The notes under the pieces are model-generated. The model was not told the origin of the DNA and ran no database searches. It was given only the letters and a program-made list of their open reading frames with translations. Shown piece by piece: positions 17,134-38,518 of a stretch of DNA of 64,000 nucleotides. The position numbers were made by a program, and so were the translations under genes. Each line of letters opens with the position of its first letter. Positions within the stretch are counted from its first letter, which is position 1. Source of the stretch: Bacteroides sp. AN502(2024) (lineage in GTDB: Bacteria; Bacteroidota; Bacteroidia; Bacteroidales; Bacteroidaceae); assembly GCF_041227145.1 (NCBI RefSeq), contig NZ_JBGFSP010000012.1:1-64000 (forward strand), written 5' to 3'.

Positions 17134-20133
17134 TCACTCCTCATATGCTGACAATCCCGATATTTCCTGATCTGTTGCCATTTTCTTCAATAATGGTATC
17201 AAGTCATTCATTAATGCCGTTTCTTCTTTTGCCCGTGCTTTCCAGTCCAGCTCCAGTGGTTCAAGCAGTTCGTTAAGTTTCTCCCCATCAAATATTTTCC
17301 GCTCCACAATATCATTGACAAACTGTTGCAGCGAAACGATATTCAGCCTATGCGTATCTGCTATCACAGAAAGTTCTGCGGCATATTTCTCTGTCTTGAA
17401 CACTTCATATTCCTCCTTGATTTCCTGCACGGTCTTTCCGTTCAAACTATCAGAGTCGTGACTATTTATAAAGGCTATAATATCGTCGCGTTCGTCAAGC
17501 ATATTTGAACTTGAACAAATCAGACTTATCAGTTGGGTTTTAGTCATCTTAGCCATGGACGGAACACCGCTGTAATAGCGTGCTATAAGTTCCATGATAT
17601 AATCGTAATCGATGATGGCAGATGCAAACAGGACAAACTCGAAATCCAAATCATCTATCGTATCGGATACTTCATCACTCTTTTTCTGTCGTTTATCTCG
17701 AAGTTCCTTTGCCAAATCCAGATATGCACCACGGAACGCTACTAAATCATTATCGGTAAAGCCATAAGGTACACTTGGCTCACTGACTATACCCGGTTCA
17801 TTGCTTCTCGTATCAATAATATCTGTATATTGGTCCAATTGGGTCTTATATCTCTGTATTTCCTTAAAATGATTGATAAAACCGGCTTTGGCATTATCCC
17901 CTCTAAGATTTGCCACTTCTTCCGCTTTAAATTCCAAATCGTGCAGATTCATAAATTCACGCAGACTCCTGACTGCATCCTTATACTTCTTCATAATGGC
18001 AGACGCAGGTTCAACCAGCCAGACTTGCCGCGCTCTTTCATCTTTTTCTCCGGAAAACAGTACTATTGCCTCATCCACAGCGGCTTGTTGTCCACGAAAA
18101 TCAAGAATGTTTCCGTAGGGCTTTGTATCGTTCAGAATACGGTTTGTACGTGAAAAAGCTTGTACCAATACATGCCACTTCAAATTCTTATCGACATACA
18201 GTGTGTTCAAGAATTTGGAGTCAAAACCGGTAAGTAACATATCCACCACGATGGTAATGTCTATCTTGTTGTGATGTGGATAGTCCTTATTGGTATATTT
18301 TTGGTCTTTTATACGTTGTTGTACATCCTGATAGTAGGTGTCAAACTCTGTAATAGAATGGGTCGTACCATATTGTCCATTATAATCATCTATAATTTCT
18401 TCCAGAGCTTTTTTCTTTTGGTCCAGCTCTTTTTCGTTATCCAAACGCTCCTGCTGTAAATCCTCCTGAATCTGTATTATATCCTTGTTCCCTTCTGCCG
18501 GAGGTGAGAATACACAGGCGATATTCAGTTTAACGTAATTCTCATCTTCCTCTGTCCGCTTTTTTTGTTCTGTTTTGAAAAGATTGTAATATTCAATCGC
18601 CTCATTGATTGAGCCGGTGGCAAACAGAGCATTAAATCGCATATCGTTGGTGGCTGCCCGATGTTTGTTTAGAATGGCATCGACAACGGCTTGTTTCTTC
18701 ATCTCTCCGTCAACTATCTGCATGATATTCTCGTCAGGTTTGAAATAGTCAATATGGAAACGTAATACGTTCTTGTCATCAATTGCATTCGTTATTGTGT
18801 ATGAATGCAATTCCTTCTGAAATATATCCACCGTCGTTTTGTAGTGCCCTTCTTCTCCTGTTGCTTGCACATATGTCGCATTTTTGTCAAATATGGGGGT
18901 ACCGGTAAAGCCAAATAATTGTGCTTTAGGGAAGAAATCCTTTATGGCTTTATGATTATCGCCAAATTGTGAACGATGGCACTCATCGAATATGAAGACA
19001 ATCCTTTCGTCCCTTAAATCCTCCAGTTCTTCCTGATAATTCTTTCGGTTTTCTGGATCCAATGCTATTCCCAATTTCTGAATGGTAGTGACAATGATCT
19101 TGTCTTTATAGTCTTCTGACAACATCCTGCGTACAAGAGAATCCGTATTGGTGTTCTCCTCCACACAGTTTTCCTGAAACTTGTTGAATTCTTCGCGTGT
19201 CTGTCGGTCAAGATCTTTTCGGTCCACAACGAACAAGCACTTCGCAATATCAGGATTGTCTTTCAATAATGTGGCAGCCTTAAAAGAAGTGAGTGTCTTG
19301 CCGCTTCCCGTTGTATGCCATATATAACCGTTTCCACGATTTTCCTCAATGCATTTGACTATTGCCTTTACAGCATAAATCTGATAGGGACGCATCATCA
19401 GTACTTTCTGTTCACTGGCAACAAGCACCATATAACGGCTGATTATTTCTCCCAATCTGCATTTGGGAAGAAAAGCATCTGCAAAGGCATCCAATCCGTT
19501 TATTTTCCTATTGTCTTCATCCGCCCACCTATATACCGGCAGGAAATTTTCATCGGCATTGAAGTTGAAATGCAGGTTATTGTTGTTGGCAAAGTAATAT
19601 GTATTTGTCTGATTGCTTACAATAAACATCTGAATGAAGCAAAGCAATGAATTCGTATATCCATTACCCATATCATTTTTATAGTCAACAATTTGCTGCA
19701 TAGCCCGTCGTGGGCTAACCTCAAGTGCTTTAAGTTCTATCTGCACAAGCGGTAAGCCATTAATCAGCAACATAACATCATATCGCTGGAAACTATTACG
19801 TGTATTGATGCGTAACTGGTGTACAACCTCATAATCATTCTTACACCAGTCTTTTATATTCACTAATGTATATTGCAACGGTGTGCCGTCTTCACGAAAA
19901 AACGTATTGCGTTCACGCAATCTTTTGGAAGAATAATATACATCAGAATCAGTTATTTCTTCCAGTAATCGTGTAAATTCAGAATCAGAGATATGAACAT
20001 GATTCAAATGTTCAAATTTCTCACGGAAATTCTGCTCCAAAGAGTTTCTGTCGCAAATATCCGGTCGATATGTATATTTTAACTCTATCAATTTGTGGAT
20101 AAAGTTTTCTTCTATTTGCTTTTCTCTAATCAT
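17134..20133 (-). CDS. hsdR: Type I restriction endonuclease HsdR (system 1)
   Basis: A 999-residue motor nuclease. The N-terminal PD-(D/E)XK nuclease shows D119 and the QIELK motif at 131-135. Superfamily 2 helicase motifs follow: TTGSGKT at 274-280, DECHRS at 383-388 and GFTGTPIF near 412. The C-terminal 300 residues are helical and hold the complex together. It translocates DNA and cuts it away from the unmodified site. It is the first large gene of the operon, 2 bases after the XRE gene, and its stop overlaps the hsdS start region. Confidence 0.95.
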   Translation of the reverse strand: MIREKQIEENFIHKLIELKYTYRPDICDRNSLEQNFREKFEHLNHVHISDSEFTRLLEEITDSDVYYSSKRLRERNTFFREDGTPLQYTLVNIKDWCKNDYEVVHQLRINTRNSFQRYDVMLLINGLPLVQIELKALEVSPRRAMQQIVDYKNDMGNGYTNSLLCFIQMFIVSNQTNTYYFANNNNLHFNFNADENFLPVYRWADEDNRKINGLDAFADAFLPKCRLGEIISRYMVLVASEQKVLMMRPYQIYAVKAIVKCIEENRGNGYIWHTTGSGKTLTSFKAATLLKDNPDIAKCLFVVDRKDLDRQTREEFNKFQENCVEENTNTDSLVRRMLSEDYKDKIIVTTIQKLGIALDPENRKNYQEELEDLRDERIVFIFDECHRSQFGDNHKAIKDFFPKAQLFGFTGTPIFDKNATYVQATGEEGHYKTTVDIFQKELHSYTITNAIDDKNVLRFHIDYFKPDENIMQIVDGEMKKQAVVDAILNKHRAATNDMRFNALFATGSINEAIEYYNLFKTEQKKRTEEDENYVKLNIACVFSPPAEGNKDIIQIQEDLQQERLDNEKELDQKKKALEEIIDDYNGQYGTTHSITEFDTYYQDVQQRIKDQKYTNKDYPHHNKIDITIVVDMLLTGFDSKFLNTLYVDKNLKWHVLVQAFSRTNRILNDTKPYGNILDFRGQQAAVDEAIVLFSGEKDERARQVWLVEPASAIMKKYKDAVRSLREFMNLHDLEFKAEEVANLRGDNAKAGFINHFKEIQRYKTQLDQYTDIIDTRSNEPGIVSEPSVPYGFTDNDLVAFRGAYLDLAKELRDKRQKKSDEVSDTIDDLDFEFVLFASAIIDYDYIMELIARYYSGVPSMAKMTKTQLISLICSSSNMLDERDDIIAFINSHDSDSLNGKTVQEIKEEYEVFKTEKYAAELSVIADTHRLNIVSLQQFVNDIVERKIFDGEKLNELLEPLELDWKARAKEETALMNDLIPLLKKMATDQEISGLSAYEE

Positions 20134-20135
20134 AT

Positions 20136-20345
20136 TTAGTTGGATATTTGATTCTTTATTAGGTCTTTGGGGGCAACCTGAAGAATCTCAGCAATTTCAA
20201 ATAGCACTTCCAAACTTGGTTGACGTCTGTTACATACATACGCATTGACTATACAGAAACTCTTGCCTAGTTTTTCTGCCAGCCAAGTTTGTTTGATACC
20301 TCTTTCTTCAAGTACCTCTTTTATCCGATTCATGGGTTTATCCAT
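20136..20345 (-). CDS. XRE-type regulator leading the first hsd operon
   Basis: A 69-residue Cro/C1-type helix-turn-helix protein (IKQTWLAEKLGKSFCIVNAY, then RRQPSLEVLFEIAEILQVAP). It is the first gene of the operon, 2 bases before hsdR, as for controller proteins of restriction systems. It is a clear paralogue of the regulator at 30196-30402, which leads the second hsd operon. It probably tunes expression of the system by autoregulation; this is inferred from size and position. Confidence 0.85.
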   Translation of the reverse strand: MDKPMNRIKEVLEERGIKQTWLAEKLGKSFCIVNAYVCNRRQPSLEVLFEIAEILQVAPKDLIKNQISN

Positions 20346-20589: not shown

Positions 20590-21368
20590 TTACCCTCTGT
20601 ATGCCGCCATCTTCCGAACGCTTTCCCCGGTTAACTCAATCCGGTGAGCCGTATGTATGATACGGTTCATGATGGCATCTGCCACGGTAGGATCACCGAT
20701 TGCGTCATACCAATTGTCGGTTGGCAGTTGCGAGGTGATGATGATGGACTTGCATCCATGCCGGTCCTCTATTATATCGAGCAGGATGGGACGTTCCTTG
20801 GCATCAAGGTTTACAAGGAAGAGGTCATCCAGTATGAGCAGTGTGCCCCGTTCGATTCTCTTGAGTTCTGATTACAGTGTGCCTTTTACTTTTGCCACCT
20901 TGGGCGTGCCCATAAGTTTCGGGGCATTCGCATAGTATGTCCGTATGCCTTTCTTCAGACTTCATAACCCATGGCTGTGGCAAGGAAGCTCTTTCCGGTT
21001 CCGGAGGAGCCTGTAATGAAGAGGTTCTGTCCCTGCTGGATGAACTCCAACGATGCAAGCCGCTCCACCTGGTTACAGTCAAGGCCACGCGGGATTGTAT
21101 AGTCTATCTGCTCGAGGCAGGCCTTGTAGCGGAACGAAGCTCTGCGTATAAGACGTTGGATGGCTGCATTAGCGCGGTAGTCCCATTTCCTGGCAAGTAA
21201 CATGTGCAGGAAAGAGTCGATTGTCATTGTTTCAGCCATGGTGGAAGCCAGGCTTTCAGTGAAAGCGGCGGCCATTCCGTGTAGCTTCATACGGCTCATC
21301 AGTTCGATTGTCAACGTGTTGCGGTCTTTTTCGACTGCTATCGGGGCGGTAAGATTATTTGTCTCCAT
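20590..21368 (-). pseudogene. istB: IS21 helper ATPase IstB, frameshifted
   Basis: IstB is the AAA+ helper that selects target DNA for the IstA transposase. The first 137 codons are normal (GSSGTGKSFLATAMGYE Walker A). A 1-base deletion near 20957 then shifts the frame. Restoring it gives the rest of the family sequence: RTYYANAPKLMGTPKVAKVK, LLILDDLF (Walker B), SIIITSQLP, and HRIELTGES near the end. A second lesion is a TAA codon near 20875 between GTL and SELKR. The element is therefore not autonomous. Confidence 0.88.
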
Positions 21369-22935
21369 TGTTATTCTTATTTAAATGTTTTGATTTTGCG
21401 AAGTAGGCTGCTCCGCGGATATTCTTGTGGGTGGATGTTACGGGGGCTTCATCGTCGATGTCGTCTTTTGACAGGAAGCCCGCATCATCGCCACGCTCAA
21501 GGATTTGTCTTATTTCCTGATAGCCGTATTGGCGCTGTTGCGTGGCGCATGCGCTTGCCACCACCAACCGTTTCAGTCCGAAGGTCTTTTCCTGTGCCAT
21601 GATTCCTTTGCATGAACGGAACGCTGCGGGAGGATACTTCTTGAGTTCTGCCACCTTGCGTAGATACAGCAACAGGACGTTATCCGCCTGGCCGGCCCGT
21701 TCGTAAATCTGTTCCAGATCCTTTTCGTAACTTTCATGACGTCCGGGCAGTCCGTGGGTATCCTTGGTCGTATAGATATAGGGCGTGTCATCACGCCGGT
21801 GTGTGGTTACCAAACGCAGGCCATGATATATTTCCAGCCTGTCGGCATCATAGACAATTTCGACACGTTTGCCTATATACTCTTTCGGCACGCTATAATG
21901 GTGGAGCCTGAAGGTGACATAGCTGTTCCGCATTACCGTCGCGGAGCGTCGTTCCTTCATCTGATGGCGTATGGCGAGAAGCGGGCGGAGGCAGTCGGAT
22001 TCAACCTGTTCAAATTGTTCCCGTCTTGATAGGGGACGTCCGCTCATCCTGCGCCCGTTGAAGGCCGAGAGCGATTCGGCGACAGCTGCATTCAGGGTTT
22101 CCAGCGAGTTGAACACAAGCCCCTCGATGTCGGTGTAGACAGAGCGGTAAAGCAGCTTCACGGTATTTTCCACCAAGGCCTTATCCTTTGGATGACGTAC
22201 ACGTGCGGGGTATACGGCACATCCGTAGTGTTCGGCAAATGCCGCAAACTCCTCGTTGATTACAGGCTCGTTACGGTCGCTGCGGGCTACGGCATCCTTG
22301 AGGTTGTCGGGTACTATCGCCATCGGAACCCCACCGTAAAAATGCAGGGCGTTCTCACACGCTTTGATCAGATCCTGCTTTGATTGGGACCAGACCGCCT
22401 CGCAGTAGGTATAGTGGCTGCATGGAAATATGGCCACGAACACTTCAACACTGCGGCATTCGCCACTTTCACTGTCAACCACCTCAAGTTTATCGCCGGC
22501 GAAGTCGATGTACATCTGGTCTCTGGCATAATGCTCGACATGACCTACAACATGCGTCACCATACGGTAGCTCATGAGATAGTTGCCGAAACTGGCATGC
22601 CTGCATCCGTCAGGGTGCGTCTCGCGGTACTCCTCGTACAGAGCTTTCACTGTCACGTCCCGGCGGCTGAACCGGGCGGCATACTTGGGCAGAAGCGCTT
22701 CAAGCTCAAGCTGACGTTGTGACGGAACCCTGTTACGGCCAACACCTTCCGAGAATATTTCCTGGATACGGGCGGAAGGCATGGCTGCTAGTTCCTTTAT
22801 CAGTATGCCACACTCTTGAAACAGGCGCACATATTTGCGTACCGTGCTGCGGGACAGCTCAAAGCTCCTGCTTATCTGCTTTATCCTCATCCCCAATGCG
22901 TAACATTGGAGAATGTTTGCTATCTTTGTTGTCAT
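21355..22935 (-). CDS. istA: IS21 transposase IstA
   Basis: A 526-residue IS21 transposase starting MTTKIANILQCYALGMRIKQ. The N-terminal helix-turn-helix (residues 8-40) is followed by the DDE integrase core: MYIDFAGDKLEV, VPDNLKDAV and the acidic stretch before KALVENTVKLLYR. The C-terminus matches the family. The longer in-frame start at 23004 lies in the terminal region and is rejected. Its 3' end overlaps istB by 14 bases, the normal coupling. Confidence 0.9.
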   Translation of the reverse strand: MTTKIANILQCYALGMRIKQISRSFELSRSTVRKYVRLFQECGILIKELAAMPSARIQEIFSEGVGRNRVPSQRQLELEALLPKYAARFSRRDVTVKALYEEYRETHPDGCRHASFGNYLMSYRMVTHVVGHVEHYARDQMYIDFAGDKLEVVDSESGECRSVEVFVAIFPCSHYTYCEAVWSQSKQDLIKACENALHFYGGVPMAIVPDNLKDAVARSDRNEPVINEEFAAFAEHYGCAVYPARVRHPKDKALVENTVKLLYRSVYTDIEGLVFNSLETLNAAVAESLSAFNGRRMSGRPLSRREQFEQVESDCLRPLLAIRHQMKERRSATVMRNSYVTFRLHHYSVPKEYIGKRVEIVYDADRLEIYHGLRLVTTHRRDDTPYIYTTKDTHGLPGRHESYEKDLEQIYERAGQADNVLLLYLRKVAELKKYPPAAFRSCKGIMAQEKTFGLKRLVVASACATQQRQYGYQEIRQILERGDDAGFLSKDDIDDEAPVTSTHKNIRGAAYFAKSKHLNKNNNGDK

Positions 22936-23105
22936 AGTAGAAATGATTTTATCCCACCGGTCAAGACGGGTATCAAATCTACAAAAAAATCCTCTGCCGG
23001 ACATTCTTTGACAGGGGTATTTTTATATTGGAATCAAAAGGCAGGATTATTTTGGAACAGGGGGCAAGCGATTGGTTTTAGGGGCATCTTACACTGGATT
23101 TTCCA

Positions 23106-24953: not shown

Positions 24954-26356
24954 TTAAAACTGTGTATCCTTGTCAAACAATCCTTTATCTTTCCACAACT
25001 TGATTTCCTTGTCAAAGTCCGAAAGATATTCTTTGTCTTGAATCAAGCGGAATTTGTCATATTCTGCGTATGCTTTTTCTTTTGCTTGTTCTGCGGAAAT
25101 AGTTCCAGCATCATTCAATGTATCATATTTGTATAAAGTCAAAAAATCATCTAATTGTTTTTTCCAATCTGCCATTGTGGTAATAATCTGCCGTTCTGCA
25201 CGAAGTTCTGCAAAATCAAGGAATGCAGTTGAAGACGATTTAAGGCAGAGACTTCCTTATCGGACAAATAGTTCTTAGCAACTATTGTGTCTGACTTTTG
25301 AACTCTGCCATCAGGTGCGTTTCTCCAAGTGGTAAGTCCCATGTGAGGCATTTCGGCATCTGCTCTTGAATATACAATTTCAGCTGCCGTTTGATGGGTT
25401 ACAGCCCAATGCATCATATTCTGTACCATCTTGAAGAACAGTTGGGTAGTTTCAGATTTGGGGTCATAATCGGCACTACATTCGGCATATACATCAGTGA
25501 TTTTCTGATAATATCGGCGTTCAGAAGCCCGTATCTCCCGGATGCGTTCTAATAAGTCATCAAAATAATCTTTACCAAAATGTTTTCCCTGTTTCAAACG
25601 TTCATCATCCAATACGAATCCTTTGACTATCATTTCTTTCAGAACAGATGTCGCCCAAATTCTGAATTGAGTGGCTTGATAACTGTTCACACGATATCCT
25701 ACGGCAATGATAGCATCCAAATTATAGAACAATGGTGTACGTTCTACATCTCGTTCTCCTTCCGATTGAACTATCCTAATTTTTCGGATAGTTGCCTCTT
25801 TAGTAAGCTCTCCTGATTCGTAAATCTGACCAAGATGATAGTTGATAGTTCGTACATCCACTCCAAATAAATCGGCCATTCGCTTTTGTGACATCCAGAA
25901 TGTTTCATTGTTGAAGATGACCTCAATCCGCGTTTCTCCTTGCCTAGTTTTATAGAGTAAAATGTTGGATGACAAACTGTTGTTGGTTAATTCAGGAGAA
26001 GGAAGTTCTTGTTTGAAATATTCTCTTGCCATTTGTACTTGTGGTTTCTTGCCATCGGCATTTTCCGCAATTATCAGACAAGCTATGCGTGATAAATGTA
26101 TGTTTTCTACTTTACGAAAAGAGCTGGAACCTAATTTGACCATTTCAACCGTATGGTTAAAATGCTCTGCTGCATTAAGTCCTTTATGGTTGGCTATCGC
26201 AATGGCTTTGTTTATGATACGTGTGAATTTTTGATAGGTACTATAACTTAATGCAACGCATAGATCACGAGAAGTCCAATACTCTGAACCGTTTTCGTCT
26301 GTTTTTTTAATCTGTTCAAAGTCTGATTGAATAGGGGATATATTGTTTTCTTCCAT
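24954..26356 (-). pseudogene. RhuM-family protein with DinD/BRO-like N-domain, frameshifted
   Basis: The first part (from MEENNISPIQ) carries a DinD-like domain (SEYWTSRDLCVALSYSTYQK, residues 10-120). A RhuM domain follows (VIFNNETFWMSQKRMADLFG, PLFYNLDAIIAVGYRVNSYQ). Near 25215 a 1-base loss shifts the frame after SALNRL. The proper frame resumes (FLDFAELRAERQ, then MADWKKQLDDFLTLYKYD) and ends at 24954. RhuM proteins are of uncertain function and often sit in defence islands. The fusion of the two domains is notable. A sequencing error cannot be excluded. Confidence 0.75.
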
Positions 26357-26386
26357 TGTCTTGATACTTTTTAGAATAGTGTGCAA

Positions 26387-27089: not shown

Positions 27090-27764
27090 TTAAACATTAA
27101 TGTGAATATCGTATTCGTTTTTTTTGTCTTGAATCTTTTTAACCTCATTAATCCAAAAGCTAATATTGTTAATGAAACTATCCCATCTAACCATATGTAT
27201 ATAACTGACATAACCACGGTAAACATTATCACCAATATTACAAATTGAATTTGTTTTCTCTATTTGATTAAACATATTCGCACGTAAGACTTTGAATAGT
27301 TTATTTGTATGCCATAACGTACATCCTGACTGACAACACATCTTCGGTTCGAGTATATAATCATATCTACCATTAATATCAGGAAGAACAACTGCCAGTA
27401 TACCATTTCTTCTGCTAGTTCTGTCATTTCGAGTTGTCTCTCTTAGAGAATAAGACACTTCCCAAGGAATCCATTGTTCATCTTCGCTTTTATTTAACTC
27501 TTTCATATTAGGAGAGATGAGTACAATGGTAATGCTACTATCAAAAATTTTGTTTCTTAATTTTGACTCCACAGTGGAGTCTTTAAAATTGGATAGATCT
27601 TCACCATCTAGTTCTCCTTTATTAATATGATCATCATCTTCAAGCTTATCCTGTAGTTCATCAACATAGTGACGAACTTTAGTTGATTCGTACCAAGGTG
27701 TTCTTTCAAGATGCTTCACAGAAGTATCACCATATTTATATGATATAAAAATCTTATGTCCCAT
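27090..27764 (-). CDS. DUF1863-type TIR-like protein (fourth gene of the TIR/SLOG cassette)
   Basis: A 224-residue protein starting MGHKIFISYKYGDTSVKHLE. Residues 1-150 form a MTH538-type TIR-like domain (DUF1863), the class to which Thoeris ThsB belongs. It includes DGEDLSNFKDSTVESKLRNK, a beta strand TIVLISPNM and WIPWEVSYSL with the possible catalytic Glu102. The C-terminal 70 residues are unrecognised. By analogy it could make an NAD-derived signal after sensing infection. It begins 6 bases after the SLOG gene, so it is in the same operon. Confidence 0.82.
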   Translation of the reverse strand: MGHKIFISYKYGDTSVKHLERTPWYESTKVRHYVDELQDKLEDDDHINKGELDGEDLSNFKDSTVESKLRNKIFDSSITIVLISPNMKELNKSEDEQWIPWEVSYSLRETTRNDRTSRRNGILAVVLPDINGRYDYILEPKMCCQSGCTLWHTNKLFKVLRANMFNQIEKTNSICNIGDNVYRGYVSYIHMVRWDSFINNISFWINEVKKIQDKKNEYDIHINV

Positions 27765-27770
27765 AACTAT

Positions 27771-28352
27771 TTATAAATTAAGTAAATCTTTAAACAATGA
27801 AGAATATGCCAAGTTAATACATAATTCAGGTTCTTTACCATCAAAATATTTGTCATAAATGATTTTGGCGGCACCTCCAGTGCTAGCCAAAGGAAATACT
27901 TTTGCTTCTGGATGTAACTGAGTAAACATTGTATATTCATCTTCTACACCTTCCATACCTCCAATAAAGATTCCTGCGTAAAATTCATTATCGCCAAGCA
28001 TATGTTTTCTCATCTCTTCTATACTCAAATCTTTATCTCCCATATCGTTGGTCTTTATAATATGAGCAACACTTTCATTCTCTAAAGGAAAGAACTGTTC
28101 AAAATACGTAGATTGATACAAAATTACGCTGCTCTGTATATCTAATCCCGAATGCTGCAAAATACTAGCTATAAGTGGCGTTATTGAAGGATGACCTCCC
28201 CAAATCAGTTTATACTTAGGCAATGCCACACTAGCTAAAGCTAATACGGAATCACGTATTGCGATTGTATCCGCTGTTTTGAAATATCTTTCATCTCTTC
28301 CTAACATAGGAATACTTGCTGACAAGAATATATTTAATTGTTTTTGAGCCAT
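27771..28352 (-). CDS. SLOG-domain protein, candidate signal sensor of the cassette
   Basis: A 193-residue protein with a Rossmann-like SLOG fold. It starts with IFLSASIP and has LIWGGHPSITPLIASIL at about 49-65, IFIGGMEGVEDEYTMF near 128-143 and the loop PLASTGGAAKII near 157. SLOG domains bind nucleotide-derived ligands; in Thoeris ThsA such a domain receives the TIR-made signal. The gene overlaps the upstream TIR gene by 19 bases and precedes the DUF1863 gene by 6. No effector domain (SIR2, membrane segment or nuclease) is fused to it, so it may regulate its TIR partners or process the signal. Confidence 0.72.
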   Translation of the reverse strand: MAQKQLNIFLSASIPMLGRDERYFKTADTIAIRDSVLALASVALPKYKLIWGGHPSITPLIASILQHSGLDIQSSVILYQSTYFEQFFPLENESVAHIIKTNDMGDKDLSIEEMRKHMLGDNEFYAGIFIGGMEGVEDEYTMFTQLHPEAKVFPLASTGGAAKIIYDKYFDGKEPELCINLAYSSLFKDLLNL

Positions 28353-29497
28353 AATTCAAAATCTTTTTTCTTGATAGTTTTAACCTCTAATGATTCATTT
28401 AACCATTCTAGATGTTCTATCCATTTCTTACGAATACGCAAGTCATCATATATAAGGAATAATTCGATTTTCTCGTTATTAAGCAATTTTCTAAAACGTA
28501 GAGAATCGAAACAGTCATAAGATTGTGGAATTCCTACTGCCGGGATAAACAATCTAATTCTGTCATCTTTCAAAGTCTCTACAAGATAGCGATACTCTTG
28601 TATAAGTTGTCTCCCTTGTTTGCGGGCTTCTTTAACAAATTCTCCCACAAGATTATCTTGTCTTGCGGCGAGGTTTCTAACTCTAACAGACTCTACCGTA
28701 TGAACAATGTTCTCAATACATTCTTCAGTAATGCGACAAGATTCGCTATTGGAATCTTCATCCATAAACATTTGTTGTGTTAATTGGATAGGTTCGCATA
28801 ATAAGTTGTGTATGTCTGGAGTACAATCAGGCCAGATAATTTCAACTACTCCAATTTGTTTTTGGTTCGCTGATACAATTTCCTCATTGCACCACTTGCT
28901 ATTTTTAAAATCATTGGTGTATAGTTGGATTAATACATCGCAATCTGTCATCCGGTGATGTAGCTCTTCTTGAAAGTTTTTAGCGGGGTTGATAGAATAT
29001 GTATCAAGAAATACATCGTAATTATTCCGGACAAAAGCATCAAATAATTGGTTGGCTACAGTAGAAGAATCCGTACGGCGATAACTAATGAATAGCTTTC
29101 GGTTTTCTCTCAATAGCCTCATTGATTCAAATGCATAGTTAATATACTTTTCAACATGATCAGCAATATATTGTCTTCCATTCATTATATGAATGATTTC
29201 AGGAATTTCAGCTTCAAAATTTTCACCAAAATATATTGGTAAGATAGCATCCCCATTATCAAGAAGAACTTTTAATATATCGTTCTCTTTTTCGGAATGA
29301 TTTATATTGCCAAAATAGAATACAAAAGATGGCTGTTTATTCGAATATTTTTCACGAAAAGTTTCATCATAGATTACCTCAAACATATTGTTCTTCAAAC
29401 CTATACTATGAATCTTTTCAAAAAAGCGAGCTTTTATTGTATTGCAAGCATTATTCTTAATATCTCCTAGAAAGATAAGTTGGTATTTATATGTCAT
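28334..29497 (-). CDS. TIR-domain protein with degenerate TIR-like N-domain
   Basis: A 387-residue protein. The central TIR domain (about residues 132-265) starts KLFISYRRTDSSTVANQLFD and has the WCNEEI motif with catalytic Glu206. The N-terminal 130 residues (YQLIFLGDIKNNACNTIKAR, then FVFYFGN and LPIYFGENFEAEIPEI) have a TIR-like strand pattern but no catalytic Glu. The C-terminal 120 residues are a separate domain (RLFIPAVGIPQSYDCFDSLR) of unknown type. No membrane segment is seen. It is the second gene of the cassette, 26 bases after the first TIR gene. Confidence 0.82.
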   Translation of the reverse strand: MTYKYQLIFLGDIKNNACNTIKARFFEKIHSIGLKNNMFEVIYDETFREKYSNKQPSFVFYFGNINHSEKENDILKVLLDNGDAILPIYFGENFEAEIPEIIHIMNGRQYIADHVEKYINYAFESMRLLRENRKLFISYRRTDSSTVANQLFDAFVRNNYDVFLDTYSINPAKNFQEELHHRMTDCDVLIQLYTNDFKNSKWCNEEIVSANQKQIGVVEIIWPDCTPDIHNLLCEPIQLTQQMFMDEDSNSESCRITEECIENIVHTVESVRVRNLAARQDNLVGEFVKEARKQGRQLIQEYRYLVETLKDDRIRLFIPAVGIPQSYDCFDSLRFRKLLNNEKIELFLIYDDLRIRKKWIEHLEWLNESLEVKTIKKKDFELWLKNN

Positions 29498-29522
29498 GAT
29501 AATTGTTGTTCGTTATAAGTGG

Positions 29523-30092
29523 CTATGATACAATCCAATCGTATAAATTTTTGATATAATAATTCCCACCTTTATCCTTGTAGCAATAGTAGTATCCTCT
29601 AGGTATTAAATTCTCGTTTGAATATCTTTCTGTTCCAGAATAATATTGAATAGTCGGATATATTTGCATATATTCAGAACCTTTCCAGCCACCATCGTTC
29701 TGAGCTATCGGGAATAAAGCTATTTTCCCTAAATCTAATTTTTGCGCATCTCCGTAACCTAACTCCCAATTACACCATTTTGAATCAATAGCACCGTCTG
29801 TGGCAACTAGTATAAATTTATCGTATTTTTGGATTTGCTGTTTGATTATGGTTGCTGTGGTTCCAGATGTTTTTTTAGGCATAGAATTATCAAGCCAATC
29901 AACATAGATACTGGCATGTAATTCTTCTAAAATGTAGGCAACTCGTTTGAGTTGGCTAATTTCATCGTGTTTATGGGAAAGAAATACGGATGCATGTTGA
30001 CCGGCTGAAAAAAATCTAGTTTGCTGATGAGCTTCGGAGAGGACATCGGCAGCAAGAGTAAGTTCCTTTAGCTTATTTTCTGTTAGAATCAT
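29523..30092 (-). CDS. Short TIR-domain protein (first gene of the TIR/SLOG cassette)
   Basis: A 189-residue protein with a 30-residue helical leader, then a TIR domain: ASVFLSHKHDEISQLKRVAY, SIYVDWLDNSM, KFILVATDGAIDSKWCNWEL with catalytic Glu110. The family cleaves NAD to deplete it or to make signalling nucleotides. The C-terminus (RGYYYCYKDKGGNYYIKNLY) is rich in Tyr. It is first in the operon, downstream of a candidate TACTTTTG -7 box, and divergent from the XRE-hsd operon. Confidence 0.85.
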   Translation of the reverse strand: MILTENKLKELTLAADVLSEAHQQTRFFSAGQHASVFLSHKHDEISQLKRVAYILEELHASIYVDWLDNSMPKKTSGTTATIIKQQIQKYDKFILVATDGAIDSKWCNWELGYGDAQKLDLGKIALFPIAQNDGGWKGSEYMQIYPTIQYYSGTERYSNENLIPRGYYYCYKDKGGNYYIKNLYDWIVS

Positions 30093-30122
30093 GGCTCTTT
30101 TTAATGTTTGTCATATAATAGC

Positions 30123-30173
30123 ACAAAAGTACAAAAAATAATCTTGACTATCGAATATAATTCGCTATATTTG
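30123..30173. promoter_or_regulatory. Divergent promoters of the TIR/SLOG and second hsd operons
   Basis: Plus strand: TTG at 30144-30146, 19 bases, then TATATTTG at 30166-30173, a full match to the Bacteroides pattern, 22 bases before the XRE gene. Minus strand: TACTTTTG (30134-30127) fits TAnnTTTG and points at the TIR operon. Because both promoters share about 50 bases, the XRE protein could influence both operons. Confidence 0.65.
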
Positions 30174-30195
30174 CACAATTAAATCGCATCTAAGA

Positions 30196-30402
30196 ATGAA
30201 ATTGAACAGAATAAAGGCAGTCTTGTCGGACAAAGGCATTTCTCAGACATGGTTGGCTAAACAACTTGATAAGAGTTTCAGTATGGTCAATGCTTATGCT
30301 TGCAATAGGATTCAGCCTAATTTGGAGACGCTCCAAAAGATAGCTGAAATACTGCAAGTTGATTTGAAGGACTTGATAACAGACAAGAATGAGCGCCAAT
30401 AG
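30196..30402 (+). CDS. XRE-type regulator leading the second hsd operon
   Basis: A 68-residue helix-turn-helix protein (ISQTWLAKQLDKSFSMVNAY, then IQPNLETLQKIAEILQVDLK). It is about 60 per cent identical by eye to the regulator at 20136-20345 and holds the same position before hsdR. It is transcribed from the strong promoter at 30144-30173 and is likely an autoregulator of the restriction operon, perhaps also of the divergent TIR genes. Confidence 0.87.
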   Translation: MKLNRIKAVLSDKGISQTWLAKQLDKSFSMVNAYACNRIQPNLETLQKIAEILQVDLKDLITDKNERQ

Positions 30403-30465
30403 CGTTTATGAATGTCTATTGTTTTTTAGTGTACAACTTCCGATAATATAAAAATATAGGAATAT

Positions 30466-34594
<4,129 letters not shown>

Positions 34595-34598
34595 GCGT

Positions 34599-35750
34599 AT
34601 GGAAAACAAAAAGATAGTCCTGTCAATGGAGCAACAGTTTGGGGAAGTCATAGATATTATTCTCCAACATAAAAGCCGTGCCTCAAGAGCCGTAAACGAA
34701 GAACTGCTGCTTACTGCATGGCATGTAGGCGGATATGTATCAGCCAAGCTGAAAAGCGAAGAATGGGGAAGCAAAGTCGTATCGCAGCTATCCGAATATA
34801 TCCGTTCCCAACGACCCGATATCAAGGGCTATAGCCGAAGCAGCATTTATAATATGGTGCTGTTCTATGATGAATATTCATCGGAAGCATTTTCTGCAAC
34901 AGTAGAGAAATATCTGAACGCAGAGTTTATCCAGCCAAGAATTGGACAAATAGGAACGGATCGACCTGTACAAGAAATGGCTGTAATTGTGCAGTCAACA
35001 CCTGCACAAATTGTCCAACCAAGAACTGGACAAATGCCTAAAATTCTGGAATTAACCACTTTGACCAACCATATAGAGATATTGTGCCGATGTAAAAGCA
35101 ACGAAGAACGAATGTTCTACATACTCTATGCCAATAAAGAGCATTTGGCAAAACGAGAACTTCAGCGTTGTATCTCCAACCAAACATATACAGCTTTATT
35201 AGGCAGCAAGGACAATATGTCAAAAGGATTGCTTGAAGCATACCCCAATGCTCCTGTTATGTTCAAAGACACGCTGTTTGTGGATTTCCTTAATTTGCCG
35301 AAGAAGCATAGTGAATCAAAGCTGAGAAACGGTTTGCTGGGACACATGAAGCAGTTTATTCTTGAACTTGGCAAGGACTTTATCTTTATGGATCAAGAGT
35401 ATCGTCTGAATATTGGCGCATCTACATTCAAGGCAGACTTGTTGTTCTTCCATCGTGGATTGCAGGCGTTGGTGGCGGTGGAATTGAAAAAGACAAAATT
35501 CCATCCGCGCGACCTCGGGCAACTGGAGTTTTATTTGGAAGCACTCGACCGAGACGTGAAGCGTTCCAACGAAAACCCCTCTATCGGTATCATTCTCTGT
35601 CCGGAAGCAAACCGTGTAGTGGTGGAATATGCCATGAGCAGAAGCATGAGTCCTACGATGATAGCCGAATACAAGCGCATCCTTATTCCGCAGGAACGTA
35701 TGCAACAGCAACTGAATGAATTCTGCAACCTGTTCTTAAACAAAGACTAA
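34599..35750 (+). CDS. DUF1016 (YhcG-type) PD-(D/E)XK nuclease in the hsd operon
   Basis: A 383-residue protein. The N-terminal helical domain (residues 1-110: ELLLTAWHVGGYVSAKLKSE, YSRSSIYNMVLFYDEY) and the C-terminal nuclease-like domain are those of DUF1016/YhcG. The C-domain shows RLNIGASTFKADLLFFHRGL, with Asp, then VAVELKKTKFHPRDLGQLEF, containing E-x-K and a Gln, the PD-(D/E)XK pattern. Its position between hsdM and hsdS is frequent in Bacteroides systems, but its role is unknown. Translation may also start 15 bases upstream inside hsdM. Confidence 0.85.
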   Translation: MENKKIVLSMEQQFGEVIDIILQHKSRASRAVNEELLLTAWHVGGYVSAKLKSEEWGSKVVSQLSEYIRSQRPDIKGYSRSSIYNMVLFYDEYSSEAFSATVEKYLNAEFIQPRIGQIGTDRPVQEMAVIVQSTPAQIVQPRTGQMPKILELTTLTNHIEILCRCKSNEERMFYILYANKEHLAKRELQRCISNQTYTALLGSKDNMSKGLLEAYPNAPVMFKDTLFVDFLNLPKKHSESKLRNGLLGHMKQFILELGKDFIFMDQEYRLNIGASTFKADLLFFHRGLQALVAVELKKTKFHPRDLGQLEFYLEALDRDVKRSNENPSIGIILCPEANRVVVEYAMSRSMSPTMIAEYKRILIPQERMQQQLNEFCNLFLNKD

Positions 35751-35755
35751 CCGGT

Positions 35756-37186
35756 ATGGACACCAAGAAATTACGTCAAAAGATACTCGACCTTGCCATT
35801 CGTGGCAAACTTGTTCCGCAAGACCCGAACGATGAGCCTGCATCCGTTTTGCTTGAACGTATCAAAGCGGAGAAAGAACGGCTGATAAAAGAAGGGAAGA
35901 TAAAGCGTAGTAAAAAAGCCGCAAAGACTTCCGATACGCCCCATTATGAGAACGTGCCATTTGAAGTGCCGAGTTCGTGGGATTTTGCTCCTGTTTCAGA
36001 TTTGTTTTGTCTCAATCCCAAATCGGAATTAGCTGCAAACCTGAAAGTCGGATTTATCCCAATGGCTCTTGTAGAGGATGGATTCTCAGGAAATCATTTG
36101 TTTGAAGAACGTATATGGAATGACGTTAAAAAGGGGTATTGCCATTTTGCAAATGGGGATATTGGTATTGCAAAAATATCGCCATGTTTTGAAAATCGTA
36201 AATCAACAATATTTCAAAATCTGCCCAACAACTATGGGGCAGGAACGACCGAATTAGTAATTCTTCGACCAATTATGGTTTATGCAAGATTCTATCTTTA
36301 TCTTTTCAAATCAGATTGGTATATTCAAGAAGGTACTAAATACTTCAAAGGAGTTGTTGGGCAACAAAGAGTTCACAAAGAAATATTCACAGATTTACCT
36401 ATACCTCTTCCTCCTTTTGCAGAACAACAGCGCATAGTGACAGAGATTGAACATTGGTTTGCTTTGATTGACCAAATAGAACAAGGGAAAGCTGACTTAC
36501 AAGCAGCCATTAAGCAAGCCAAGAGCAAAATCCTTGACCTCGCCATTCACGGTAAACTTGTGCCGCAAGACCCGAATGATGAGCCTGCTATTGAATTGTT
36601 GAAACGCATAAATCCCGACTTCACACCTTGTGATAACGGGCATTATCAGAACTTGCCTTTTGCTATCCCTCAAAATTGGATATGGGCAACACTAAATGAA
36701 ATTGGTAAATGGCAGTCTGGCGGGACTCCAAACAGATTAAATAAAGAGTATTATGGTGGTGATATTCCTTGGCTAAAGACAGGGGACTTAAATGATGGAT
36801 TGATTACATATATTCCGGAAAACATAACAGAAAAAGCTCTGAATGAGACATCTGTAAAGTTGAATCCTACAGGAAGTGTGTTAATCGCCATGTATGGTGC
36901 AACGATAGGTAAAATTGGGATATTGACATTTCCTGCTACTACAAATCAGGCTTGTTGTGCTTGTAATGTTTTTCAAGGAATAGAAAAAGAGTATCTTTCC
37001 TATTTTTTACTCTCTCATAAAGAAGATTTTATAAGGTTAGGAGGTGGTGGAGCACAACCTAATATATCAAAGGAGAAAATTATCAATACATATATACCTG
37101 TACCTCCATATGCAGAACAAAGGCGTATTATAGATGCTATTCGTAAAGCATTCGCTAAAATAGATACAATCATGGAGAATCTATAA
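35756..37186 (+). CDS. hsdS: Expressed type I specificity subunit HsdS (system 2)
   Basis: A 476-residue complete HsdS. The start (MDTKKLRQKILDLAIRGKLV) and the middle (SKILDLAIHGKLVPQDPNDE) are conserved helices bracketing two variable target-recognition domains (about residues 60-220 and 310-470). It lies 5 bases after the DUF1016 gene. Both conserved boundaries carry inverted repeats shared with the silent cassettes downstream. Inversion would swap recognition domains and change the sequence specificity of the whole system. Confidence 0.93.
   Translation: MDTKKLRQKILDLAIRGKLVPQDPNDEPASVLLERIKAEKERLIKEGKIKRSKKAAKTSDTPHYENVPFEVPSSWDFAPVSDLFCLNPKSELAANLKVGFIPMALVEDGFSGNHLFEERIWNDVKKGYCHFANGDIGIAKISPCFENRKSTIFQNLPNNYGAGTTELVILRPIMVYARFYLYLFKSDWYIQEGTKYFKGVVGQQRVHKEIFTDLPIPLPPFAEQQRIVTEIEHWFALIDQIEQGKADLQAAIKQAKSKILDLAIHGKLVPQDPNDEPAIELLKRINPDFTPCDNGHYQNLPFAIPQNWIWATLNEIGKWQSGGTPNRLNKEYYGGDIPWLKTGDLNDGLITYIPENITEKALNETSVKLNPTGSVLIAMYGATIGKIGILTFPATTNQACCACNVFQGIEKEYLSYFLLSHKEDFIRLGGGGAQPNISKEKIINTYIPVPPYAEQRRIIDAIRKAFAKIDTIMENL
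35929..35952 (+). repeat. Inversion site 1, arm in hsdS
   Basis: A 24-bp sequence at the start of the first recognition domain (encoding DTPHYEN). It is repeated perfectly in inverted orientation at 39790-39813 in the third hsdS copy, with further similarity on its inner side. Confidence 0.85.
36575..36636 (+). repeat. Inversion site 2, arm in hsdS
   Basis: A 62-bp sequence in the central conserved region (encoding NDEPAIELLKRINPDF and following). It is repeated perfectly in inverted orientation at 39088-39149. It is followed by CGGGCATTAT (36637-36646), which recurs inverted at 37658-37667 at the start of the second silent cassette. Confidence 0.9.
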
Positions 37187-37670
37187 ACTACCCATGATTG
37201 CATCAAGATGCTTAAATGCAATATTTATGGCATTAACAATCCTTTGTTGCTCATTATAAGGCGGTAGCGGCACATCTATTGCTTTGAATAACTTTTTGTT
37301 CAAGTGAGGAATGGCTGAACCGACTTTATTTTCTCGCAATGTCTTACGATGCAAATTGATAACTTGCAGAATATAATCGGTATTCACATTGCTGTTTATA
37401 GACAGCTGTTTGAATGTGCTACCTTGATAGCCTTCTATCGGCGTTCGGAACACTTCACCGGAGTTTTCGCCATCTACCAGTATTAAAAGTGAATTTGCGG
37501 AAGTATATTTCCCATAGGTTATCATCTTAGCATCACGCTCTCCACGCAAATATTTGACATCAAGATTTATTCTTTCTATACCACTTTGCTTTTCTCCATC
37601 GATTAAAGAACATATCATCTGCATAGGTATGACGCACCACGAATCAGGCAACTGCGTATAATGCCCGATA
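37181..37670 (-). pseudogene. hsdS: Silent half-hsdS cassette (one recognition domain)
   Basis: An open frame without a start of its own encodes one HsdS recognition domain and the C-terminal helix, from GHYTQLPDSWCVIPMQMICS to PPYNEQQRIVNAINIAFKHL. It is oriented tail-to-tail with the expressed hsdS, whose last codons it meets at 37181-37186. The shared CGGGCATTAT at its beginning would allow exchange with the second domain of the expressed gene. Confidence 0.82.
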
Positions 37671-37714
37671 CATTCTGTTATATTGTTGCTGTATTCATTA
37701 TAAATCAATGTAAT

Positions 37715-38518
37715 ATGGTAACAAAATTCAAAAGCTATCTCGCCAAGACGAACTTGGCAAAGAACACCGTTACATCGTATGTGTGGACGGTACAGTATTT
37801 CCTCGGTCATTATGGGGAAGTGAACAAAAAGAACCTCTTGGCATACAAAGGGTATCTGGTGGAGAACTTCAAGCCACAAACGGTAAATCTACGATTGCAG
37901 GGCATCAACAAGTATCTGGAGTTTACGAAACAGGAGAAACTGAAGGTAAAGTTCGTCAAAGTGCAACAAAAGAACTTTTTGGAGAACGTAATCAGCGATG
38001 CCGATTATAAATTTCTGAAAACTCGATTAAAAGCTGACGGTTACGATGAATGGTACTTTGTCGTATGGTTTATGGCTGCTACCGGATCACGTGTCAGCGA
38101 ACTGCTCCATATCAAAGCGGAGCATGTGCAGGTCGGACATCTTGACCTTTATAGCAAAGGTGGGAAAATACGTCGCTTATACATTCCAAAGAACTTGCGT
38201 ATAGAAGCTGCGAAGTGGCTCAAAGAAAAAGGTATTGTTTCAGGCTATATATTCCTAAATCGATTCGGGCAGCGTATCACCACGCGTGGTATAGCTCAAC
38301 AACTGAAACATTTTGCCGTAAAATACGGAATGAATAAGGAGGTGGTTTATCCTCATTCATTCCGTCATCGTTTCGCCAAGAACTTTCTTGACCGTTTCAA
38401 CGACCTTGCCCTACTTGCCGACCTTATGGGGCACGAGAGCATCGAAACCACTCGTATCTATCTCCGCAGAACTGCCAGCGAGCAGCAGAAAATCGTGGAT
38501 AAAGTCGTGAATTGGTAA
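37715..38518 (+). CDS. Tyrosine recombinase, probable hsdS invertase
   Basis: A 267-residue tyrosine recombinase without an arm-binding domain. Residues 1-85 form the SAM-like core-binding domain, and the catalytic domain has R126 (TGSRVSEL), HSFRH with H214 and R217, H240 (MGHESIETT) and nucleophile Y249. It sits between the two silent hsdS cassettes. In Bacteroides such single recombinases catalyse hsdS shuffling at local inverted repeats. The ATG at 37715 is preferred to the in-frame start at 37661, which lies in the inverted repeat. Confidence 0.88.
   Translation: MVTKFKSYLAKTNLAKNTVTSYVWTVQYFLGHYGEVNKKNLLAYKGYLVENFKPQTVNLRLQGINKYLEFTKQEKLKVKFVKVQQKNFLENVISDADYKFLKTRLKADGYDEWYFVVWFMAATGSRVSELLHIKAEHVQVGHLDLYSKGGKIRRLYIPKNLRIEAAKWLKEKGIVSGYIFLNRFGQRITTRGIAQQLKHFAVKYGMNKEVVYPHSFRHRFAKNFLDRFNDLALLADLMGHESIETTRIYLRRTASEQQKIVDKVVNW

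Follow-up and report, generated by a model that had tools for sequence, protein, structure and literature searches.

The 64,000-nucleotide stretch of Bacteroides sp. AN502(2024) analysed here (the window) carries on its minus strand a four-gene operon, encoding three TIR proteins and a stand-alone SLOG protein, which, judged from its protein families, is almost certainly a type III Thoeris system. The SLOG protein scored 234.8 bits (cut-off 110) against the NCBIfam model NF058525, Thoeris type III anti-phage system protein ThcA, and the product of the adjoining gene scored 378.8 bits (cut-off 220) against NF058526, the ThcB4 model. As both are equivalog models (NCBIfam release 20.0), the matches mean that the operon is already named; the original prediction, made from the letters alone, had put it forward as a candidate new system whose gene set no named system shares, and that claim of novelty fails, the two matches ruling out a new unnamed system. 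The reading that we favour, with a probability of a little under 0.6, is that of a four-gene system in which a signal made by front-end TIR proteins would be read by ThcA and passed to ThcB4, acting as an NADase. The operon and the region upstream of it comprise:

30093..30195: divergent intergenic region, upstream of the minus-strand operon
29523..30092, minus strand: TIR189 gene (189 residues), an accessory TIR class, matched by PADLOC ThsB model PDLC00423, putative catalytic Glu110
28334..29497, minus strand: ThcB4 gene (387 residues), the core TIR protein
28334..28352, minus strand: 19-base overlap of the end of ThcB4 with the start of ThcA
27771..28352, minus strand: ThcA gene (193 residues), the stand-alone SLOG protein
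27090..27764, minus strand: TIR224 gene (224 residues), an accessory TIR class with a ThsB_TIR domain, matched by PADLOC model PDLC00428, putative catalytic Glu102

The open reading frame coordinates agree exactly with the packing first described for these genes, with 25 bases between TIR189 and ThcB4, the overlap between ThcB4 and ThcA, suggesting that translation of the two core genes is coupled, and six bases between ThcA and TIR224. The proposed TIR/TIR/SLOG/TIR content was likewise borne out by Pfam domains in all four proteins: TIR_2 in TIR189 (3.4e-7) and ThcB4 (7.7e-15), LD_cluster3 SLOG in ThcA (2.6e-56) and ThsB_TIR (DUF1863) in TIR224 (1.2e-5). No Pfam match to SIR2 was found in any of the four, and the same domain scan rules out a concealed fused effector, whether SIR2 or another. 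PADLOC ThsB models gave near end-to-end matches to all three TIR proteins, making TIR189 and TIR224 further ThsB-like genes of the operon. Residues 1–223 of TIR224 matched PDB 9vyl_A (‘Putative cyclic ADP-D-ribose synthase TIR1’; 1.4e-67), and TIR189 showed weak similarity to the TIR-domain protein of PDB 8btn_B (2.1e-13). The upstream region holds a single TAnnTTTG (TACTTTTG), which we take to be a site like the Bacteroidetes -7 box and which ends 31 bases ahead of the first minus-strand ATG; there is no convincing -33 box in this region, and the motif is weak evidence of a promoter because it is present 67 times on the two strands of the window.

From family identity, conserved active-site residues, the predicted fold of ThcA and its constant pairing and co-divergence with ThcB4, together with turnover of the accessory TIRs and the occurrence, in a few relatives, of further SLOG-linked effectors at the same loci, all computed here, we infer the signal chemistry, the direction of signalling, complex formation, depletion of nicotinamide adenine dinucleotide (NAD+) and phage defence as follows. 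Upon phage infection, one or both of the front-end enzymes, TIR189 and TIR224, would act as phage sensors and signal makers, converting NAD+ to an isomer of cyclic ADP-ribose; this would be bound by ThcA in a ThsA-like pocket, and ThcA, once ligand-bound, would release or assemble ThcB4, whose TIR domain would destroy NAD+ and so halt the infected cell ahead of phage production. Thoeris-like NAD signalling, as the original prediction proposed, is plausible on this reading. The operon TIRs would probably be split into signal makers and one NADase effector, ThcB4, which with the SLOG receiver ThcA, encoded by an overlapping gene, would form the fixed core, and the front-end classes would be gained and lost by relatives. 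The core pair would amount to a ThsA protein split in two, with a TIR domain replacing SIR2.

The glutamates originally proposed as active-site residues are present and are conserved in relatives (counts include the window proteins): Glu206 of ThcB4 in 83 of 83 sequences, Glu110 of TIR189 in 49 of 49 and Glu102 of TIR224 in 54 of 55. By analogy, they are putative catalytic residues. ThcB4 consists of an N-terminal alpha/beta domain (residues ~1–127), the TIR domain with Glu206 (~131–250), a long helix (258–293) and a C-terminal domain (~300–387); profile comparison of its N-terminal and C-terminal domains with TIR, with SLOG and with each other gave nothing (probabilities 0.0–0.2), and the top Foldseek matches of the whole chain reach TM-scores of only ~0.2. 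In ThcA, Gly131-Gly132, Arg115 and Glu139 are almost invariant, the structures nearest to the predicted model are the SLOG domains of ThsA proteins, and the pocket residues align with those of ThsA; it is probable that ThcA is the receiver. The alignments drew on 32 proteins from the 120 listed among 3093 found (set A1), 33 of the 83 ThcB4 sequences (A2) and 24 of the 86 ThcA sequences (A3).

The SLOG fold is shared with the LOG phosphoribohydrolases, whose active-site motif is PGGxGTxxE, and ThcA contains a comparable glycine-rich segment, differently spaced, that runs up to Glu139. An alternative is that ThcA has enzymatic activity of its own, as a nucleotide N-glycosidase of the LOG type that either processes the signal or finishes off the cell, and that ThcB4 makes the signal supplied to it. 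We consider this unlikely. It is with ThsA that the pocket residues of ThcA align.

The constancy of the pair was assessed in a locus set comprising 80 relatives, five loci from the draw of Bacteroidota genomes and the window; neighbourhoods were counted in 70 loci, the window included, with at least 2.5 kb on each side, leaving out L086 because ThcA there reads as two overlapping pieces, and TIR classes were assigned with our own profiles at above 80 bits. ThcB4 lies near ThcA in 70 of 70 loci. TIR224 is present in 48 of them, TIR189 and a class of ~165 residues (TIR165) in 39 each, and a class of ~260 residues (TIR260) in eight; the last two are neighbour clusters, a representative of each being matched by PADLOC ThsB models. 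One or more accessory TIRs occur in 67 loci, and a locus holds from one to six TIR genes, ThcB4 counted. The three TIRs of the operon differ in standing: the SLOG protein has ThcB4 as its constant partner, and each of the other two classes is missing from many relatives. All 83 ThcB4/ThcA pairs are on the same strand and 50 of them share the window's overlap of exactly 19 bases; no ThcB4 above 200 bits was found in three of the 86 loci (L004, L083 and L088), where ThcA lies ~170 bases or less from the edge of the locus on that side. The four genes are also neighbours elsewhere, a co-occurrence that the original prediction had proposed to look for: the order TIR189-ThcB4-ThcA-TIR224 recurs in six other loci (L029, L031, L043, L050, L053 and L057), and the order ThcB4-ThcA-TIR224-TIR189 is found in 14.

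Because loci found with ThcA patterns are uninformative on ThcB4 without ThcA, only draws of 395 genomes bear on that question. ThcA was over its curated cut-off in six of 395 evenly drawn Bacteroidota genomes, that of the window included, and ThcB4 was over its cut-off in the same six; the two are on different contigs in genome G011, and the ThcB4 match in G254 begins at model position 102. Some match to the ThcB4 model (E 0.001 or better) occurred in 94 of the 395 genomes, and in those below the cut-off it consisted, among the matches listed, mostly of the TIR domain alone. A chance neighbourhood is ruled out by this joint occurrence and by the recurrent 19-base overlap.

The steady company of ThcA and ThcB4, with their overlapping genes, would also suit a ThcA that acts as a brake, either an antitoxin-like hold on ThcB4 or a sponge for stray signal, removed by the phage or by the signal. 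That a SLOG domain can restrain its effector is indicated by PMC10022894, in which ThsA SLOG mutants at R371, K388 and E403 had increased NADase activity in planta in the absence of signal. A brake is partly compatible with the reading in which ThcA receives a signal, and it predicts that ThcB4 is toxic alone; the conserved ligand residues of ThcA, however, favour signal-dependent control, and we hold a brake to be rather improbable.

The correlation of protein distances with those of ThcA was 0.857 for ThcB4 (82 loci), 0.696 for TIR189 (47), 0.378 for TIR224 (55) and 0.287 for TIR165 (44), none of these being reached in 999 permutations, and TIR189 correlated with ThcB4 at 0.603. In the 32 loci having ThcA, ThcB4, TIR224 and TIR189, the values were 0.79 for ThcB4, 0.72 for TIR189 and 0.285 for TIR224, the last reached by two of 999 permutations. 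On a tree of joined ThcA and ThcB4 sequences (a ‘quick’ tree that carried warnings and had several long branches), the minimum numbers of presence changes were 12 for TIR224, 17 for TIR189, 17 for TIR165 and eight for TIR260. The core pairing and these changes together indicate that the ThcB4/ThcA pair is constant and that the accessory set turns over.

The contrast is smaller in the 39 loci in which ThcA is at least 50% identical to that of the window, where the correlations with ThcA were 0.748 for ThcB4 (37 loci), 0.669 for TIR189 (18), 0.611 for TIR165 (16) and 0.548 for TIR224 (28). Since TIR189 diverges with the core, and the other classes do so moderately in close relatives, the argument from exchange is weakened, and swapping of accessory genes between lineages, as opposed to loss and retention, is less clear.

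This co-divergence of TIR189 with ThcA and ThcB4, and the moderate co-divergence of the other classes in close relatives, would suit a system with no diffusible signal, in which phage proteins are bound by the accessory TIRs and these form a mixed TIR assembly with ThcB4, scaffolded by ThcA, and PMC12847820 describes TIR NADases that can be direct effectors and phage structural parts that can drive TIR self-association; this is nevertheless the least probable alternative, as the accessory TIRs retain their putative catalytic glutamates, TIR224 and TIR165 track the core poorly over all loci, and a scaffold has no need of a SLOG fold with conserved pocket residues.

The reading in which ThcA receives a TIR-made signal can be set beside other SLOG-linked proteins found in the same gene runs. 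We scanned 62 of 98 neighbour proteins and two plasmid proteins (set A4). In three loci (L010, L065 and L068), the SIR2-STALD ThsA protein, the effector of type I, lies within the same run of genes, the order in L068 being ThsA, TIR224, TIR189, ThcB4, ThcA. As STALD was over its cut-off in only three of the 395 Bacteroidota genomes, chance co-location with ThcA/ThcB4 is unlikely, although defence genes do cluster. Two plasmids, one from E. coli and one from Pantoea, also encode a SLOG-patatin protein, with an N-terminal match to LD_cluster2 SLOG, among the TIR genes next to ThcB4/ThcA:

L122:1967-3583, E. coli plasmid NZ_CP034659.1: SLOG-patatin protein, annotated ‘CBASS cGAMP-activated phospholipase’
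L124:1294-2910, Pantoea plasmid: SLOG-patatin protein, annotated ‘CBASS cGAMP-activated phospholipase’

No other gene of a cyclic oligonucleotide-based antiphage signalling system (CBASS) is annotated within the stretches shown, and the protein may be activated by a TIR-made signal rather than by cyclic GMP–AMP (cGAMP). Two further plasmid loci, from Roseovarius (L123) and Rhizobium (L125), have ThcB4, ThcA and a TIR165, and no extra SLOG-linked reader was seen at either.

Such arrangements suggest that different SLOG proteins may read one and the same TIR product. Tentatively, and with slightly less than even confidence, we extend this to a view of type III Thoeris as a two-layer TIR circuit, in which exchangeable TIR sensors would write one message of the cyclic ADP-ribose type and interchangeable SLOG-linked killers would read it, ThcA with ThcB4 being the split killer here, and SIR2-SLOG ThsA and the SLOG-patatin phospholipase being alternative readers in relatives. 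If so, TIR would serve within one system as writer and, via ThcA, as killer. Two side observations follow. A 660-residue protein with an N-terminal TIR domain and C-terminal hexapeptide repeats (L065:2802-4784) lies between the SIR2-SLOG ThsA and ThcB4/ThcA, and a divergent ThcB4-like protein (122.9 bits, below the cut-off) at G033:C1 2983913-2988067, ~3 kb from a weak STALD match, marks a possible further variant.

Within the genus, 149 genomes were searched, including 89 with completeness of at least 90% and contamination of at most 5%, and ThcA was found in one, namely that of the window itself, as would be expected of a recent acquisition. Scanning species genomes yielded 84 confirmed ThcA relatives, 80 of which were used in the comparisons above, and the labels of the 82 loci in the tree include 60 from Bacteroidota and 11 from Pseudomonadota. 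A ThcA relative is present in 29 of 72,556 plasmid records, one of them, at 42% identity, on an E. coli plasmid, and in none of 50,697 phage records; 17 pattern matches in viral contig collections yielded no confirmed relative, and there was no nucleotide match in E. coli genomes.

In relatives, the module may also lie within restriction genes, as named from one representative per cluster. HsdM and HsdS occur at most three genes upstream in 23 of the 66 loci that extend 5 kb in this direction, and HsdR is found at most three genes downstream in 12 of 71; in the 11 loci with Hsd genes on both flanks, the module lies inside a type I restriction operon. The type I restriction operon of the window is divergent, from 30466, and is uninterrupted by Thoeris genes. 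The plus-strand run at 30196-37186 contains a small helix-turn-helix (HTH)-like gene (30196-30402, by eye), HsdR, HsdM, the PDC-S02 candidate defence gene (34584-35750) and HsdS. Beyond it, a reversed HsdS-like fragment (37181-37879, by eye) adjoins a tyrosine recombinase gene (37661-38518), so that 37181-38518 looks like a switchable HsdS locus. On the minus strand, a second HsdR gene (17134-20345) is preceded by a small HTH-like gene resembling, by eye, that at 30196-30402; an IS21-like transposase gene (21355-23004) with a partial IstB-like partner (20955-21368, by eye) lies at 20955-23004, inside the defence island; and a RhuM-family gene (24954-26386) is probably interrupted, since it reads as two overlapping frames (25151-26386 and 24954-25175).

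Our literature search found no primary paper on Thoeris type III; the name ThcB4 may imply that ThcB1–3 are among TIR224, TIR189 and TIR165. PMC12390725 states, in a paragraph citing Costa et al. 2025, that TadIII, a phage gene, gives protection against a Thoeris type III that may correspond to the present gene set. That sentence was the sole match of the search to name Thoeris type III, and the word Thoeris is absent from the main text of PMC10889362. As the system is already named, the locus itself is no discovery, and its value lies in the anatomy that comparison provides, separating a probable effector TIR from probable sensor TIRs and singling out Glu206 of ThcB4 and Arg115 and Glu139 of ThcA. 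In addition, L068 and L010, where readers of types I and III share a run of TIR genes, make it testable whether one signal serves several effectors, and the nesting of the module in restriction operons of some relatives bears on how layered defences travel.

Among known systems, the operon is matched by Thoeris type III, with both equivalog models over their curated cut-offs, adjacent genes and an identical four-gene order in the six other loci. The original prediction had allowed that the set might already match a described Thoeris system gene for gene; this proved largely true and no difference was shown, although the type III models match only two of the four genes. Thoeris type II (ThsB TIR with a TM-macro ThsA) shares the TIR signal makers but has a macro domain as its receiver, and there is no TM-macro ThsA within the four-gene operon. 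A second Thoeris pair, of type II, is present elsewhere in the genome (G000:C3 ~1671226; L119:630-1463 and 1465-1989), on contig C3, with a ThsB TIR coming after the ThsA macro protein (PF20016, 1.8e-45). A search for STALD gave no match in the window genome, though it did detect STALD elsewhere among the genomes searched. Thoeris type I (ThsB TIR with SIR2-SLOG ThsA) resembles the operon in combining TIRs with a SLOG receiver, the ThsA SLOG domains being nearest to the ThcA model; it differs in that the SLOG protein here stands alone and its partner enzyme is a TIR protein, with no SIR2 match.
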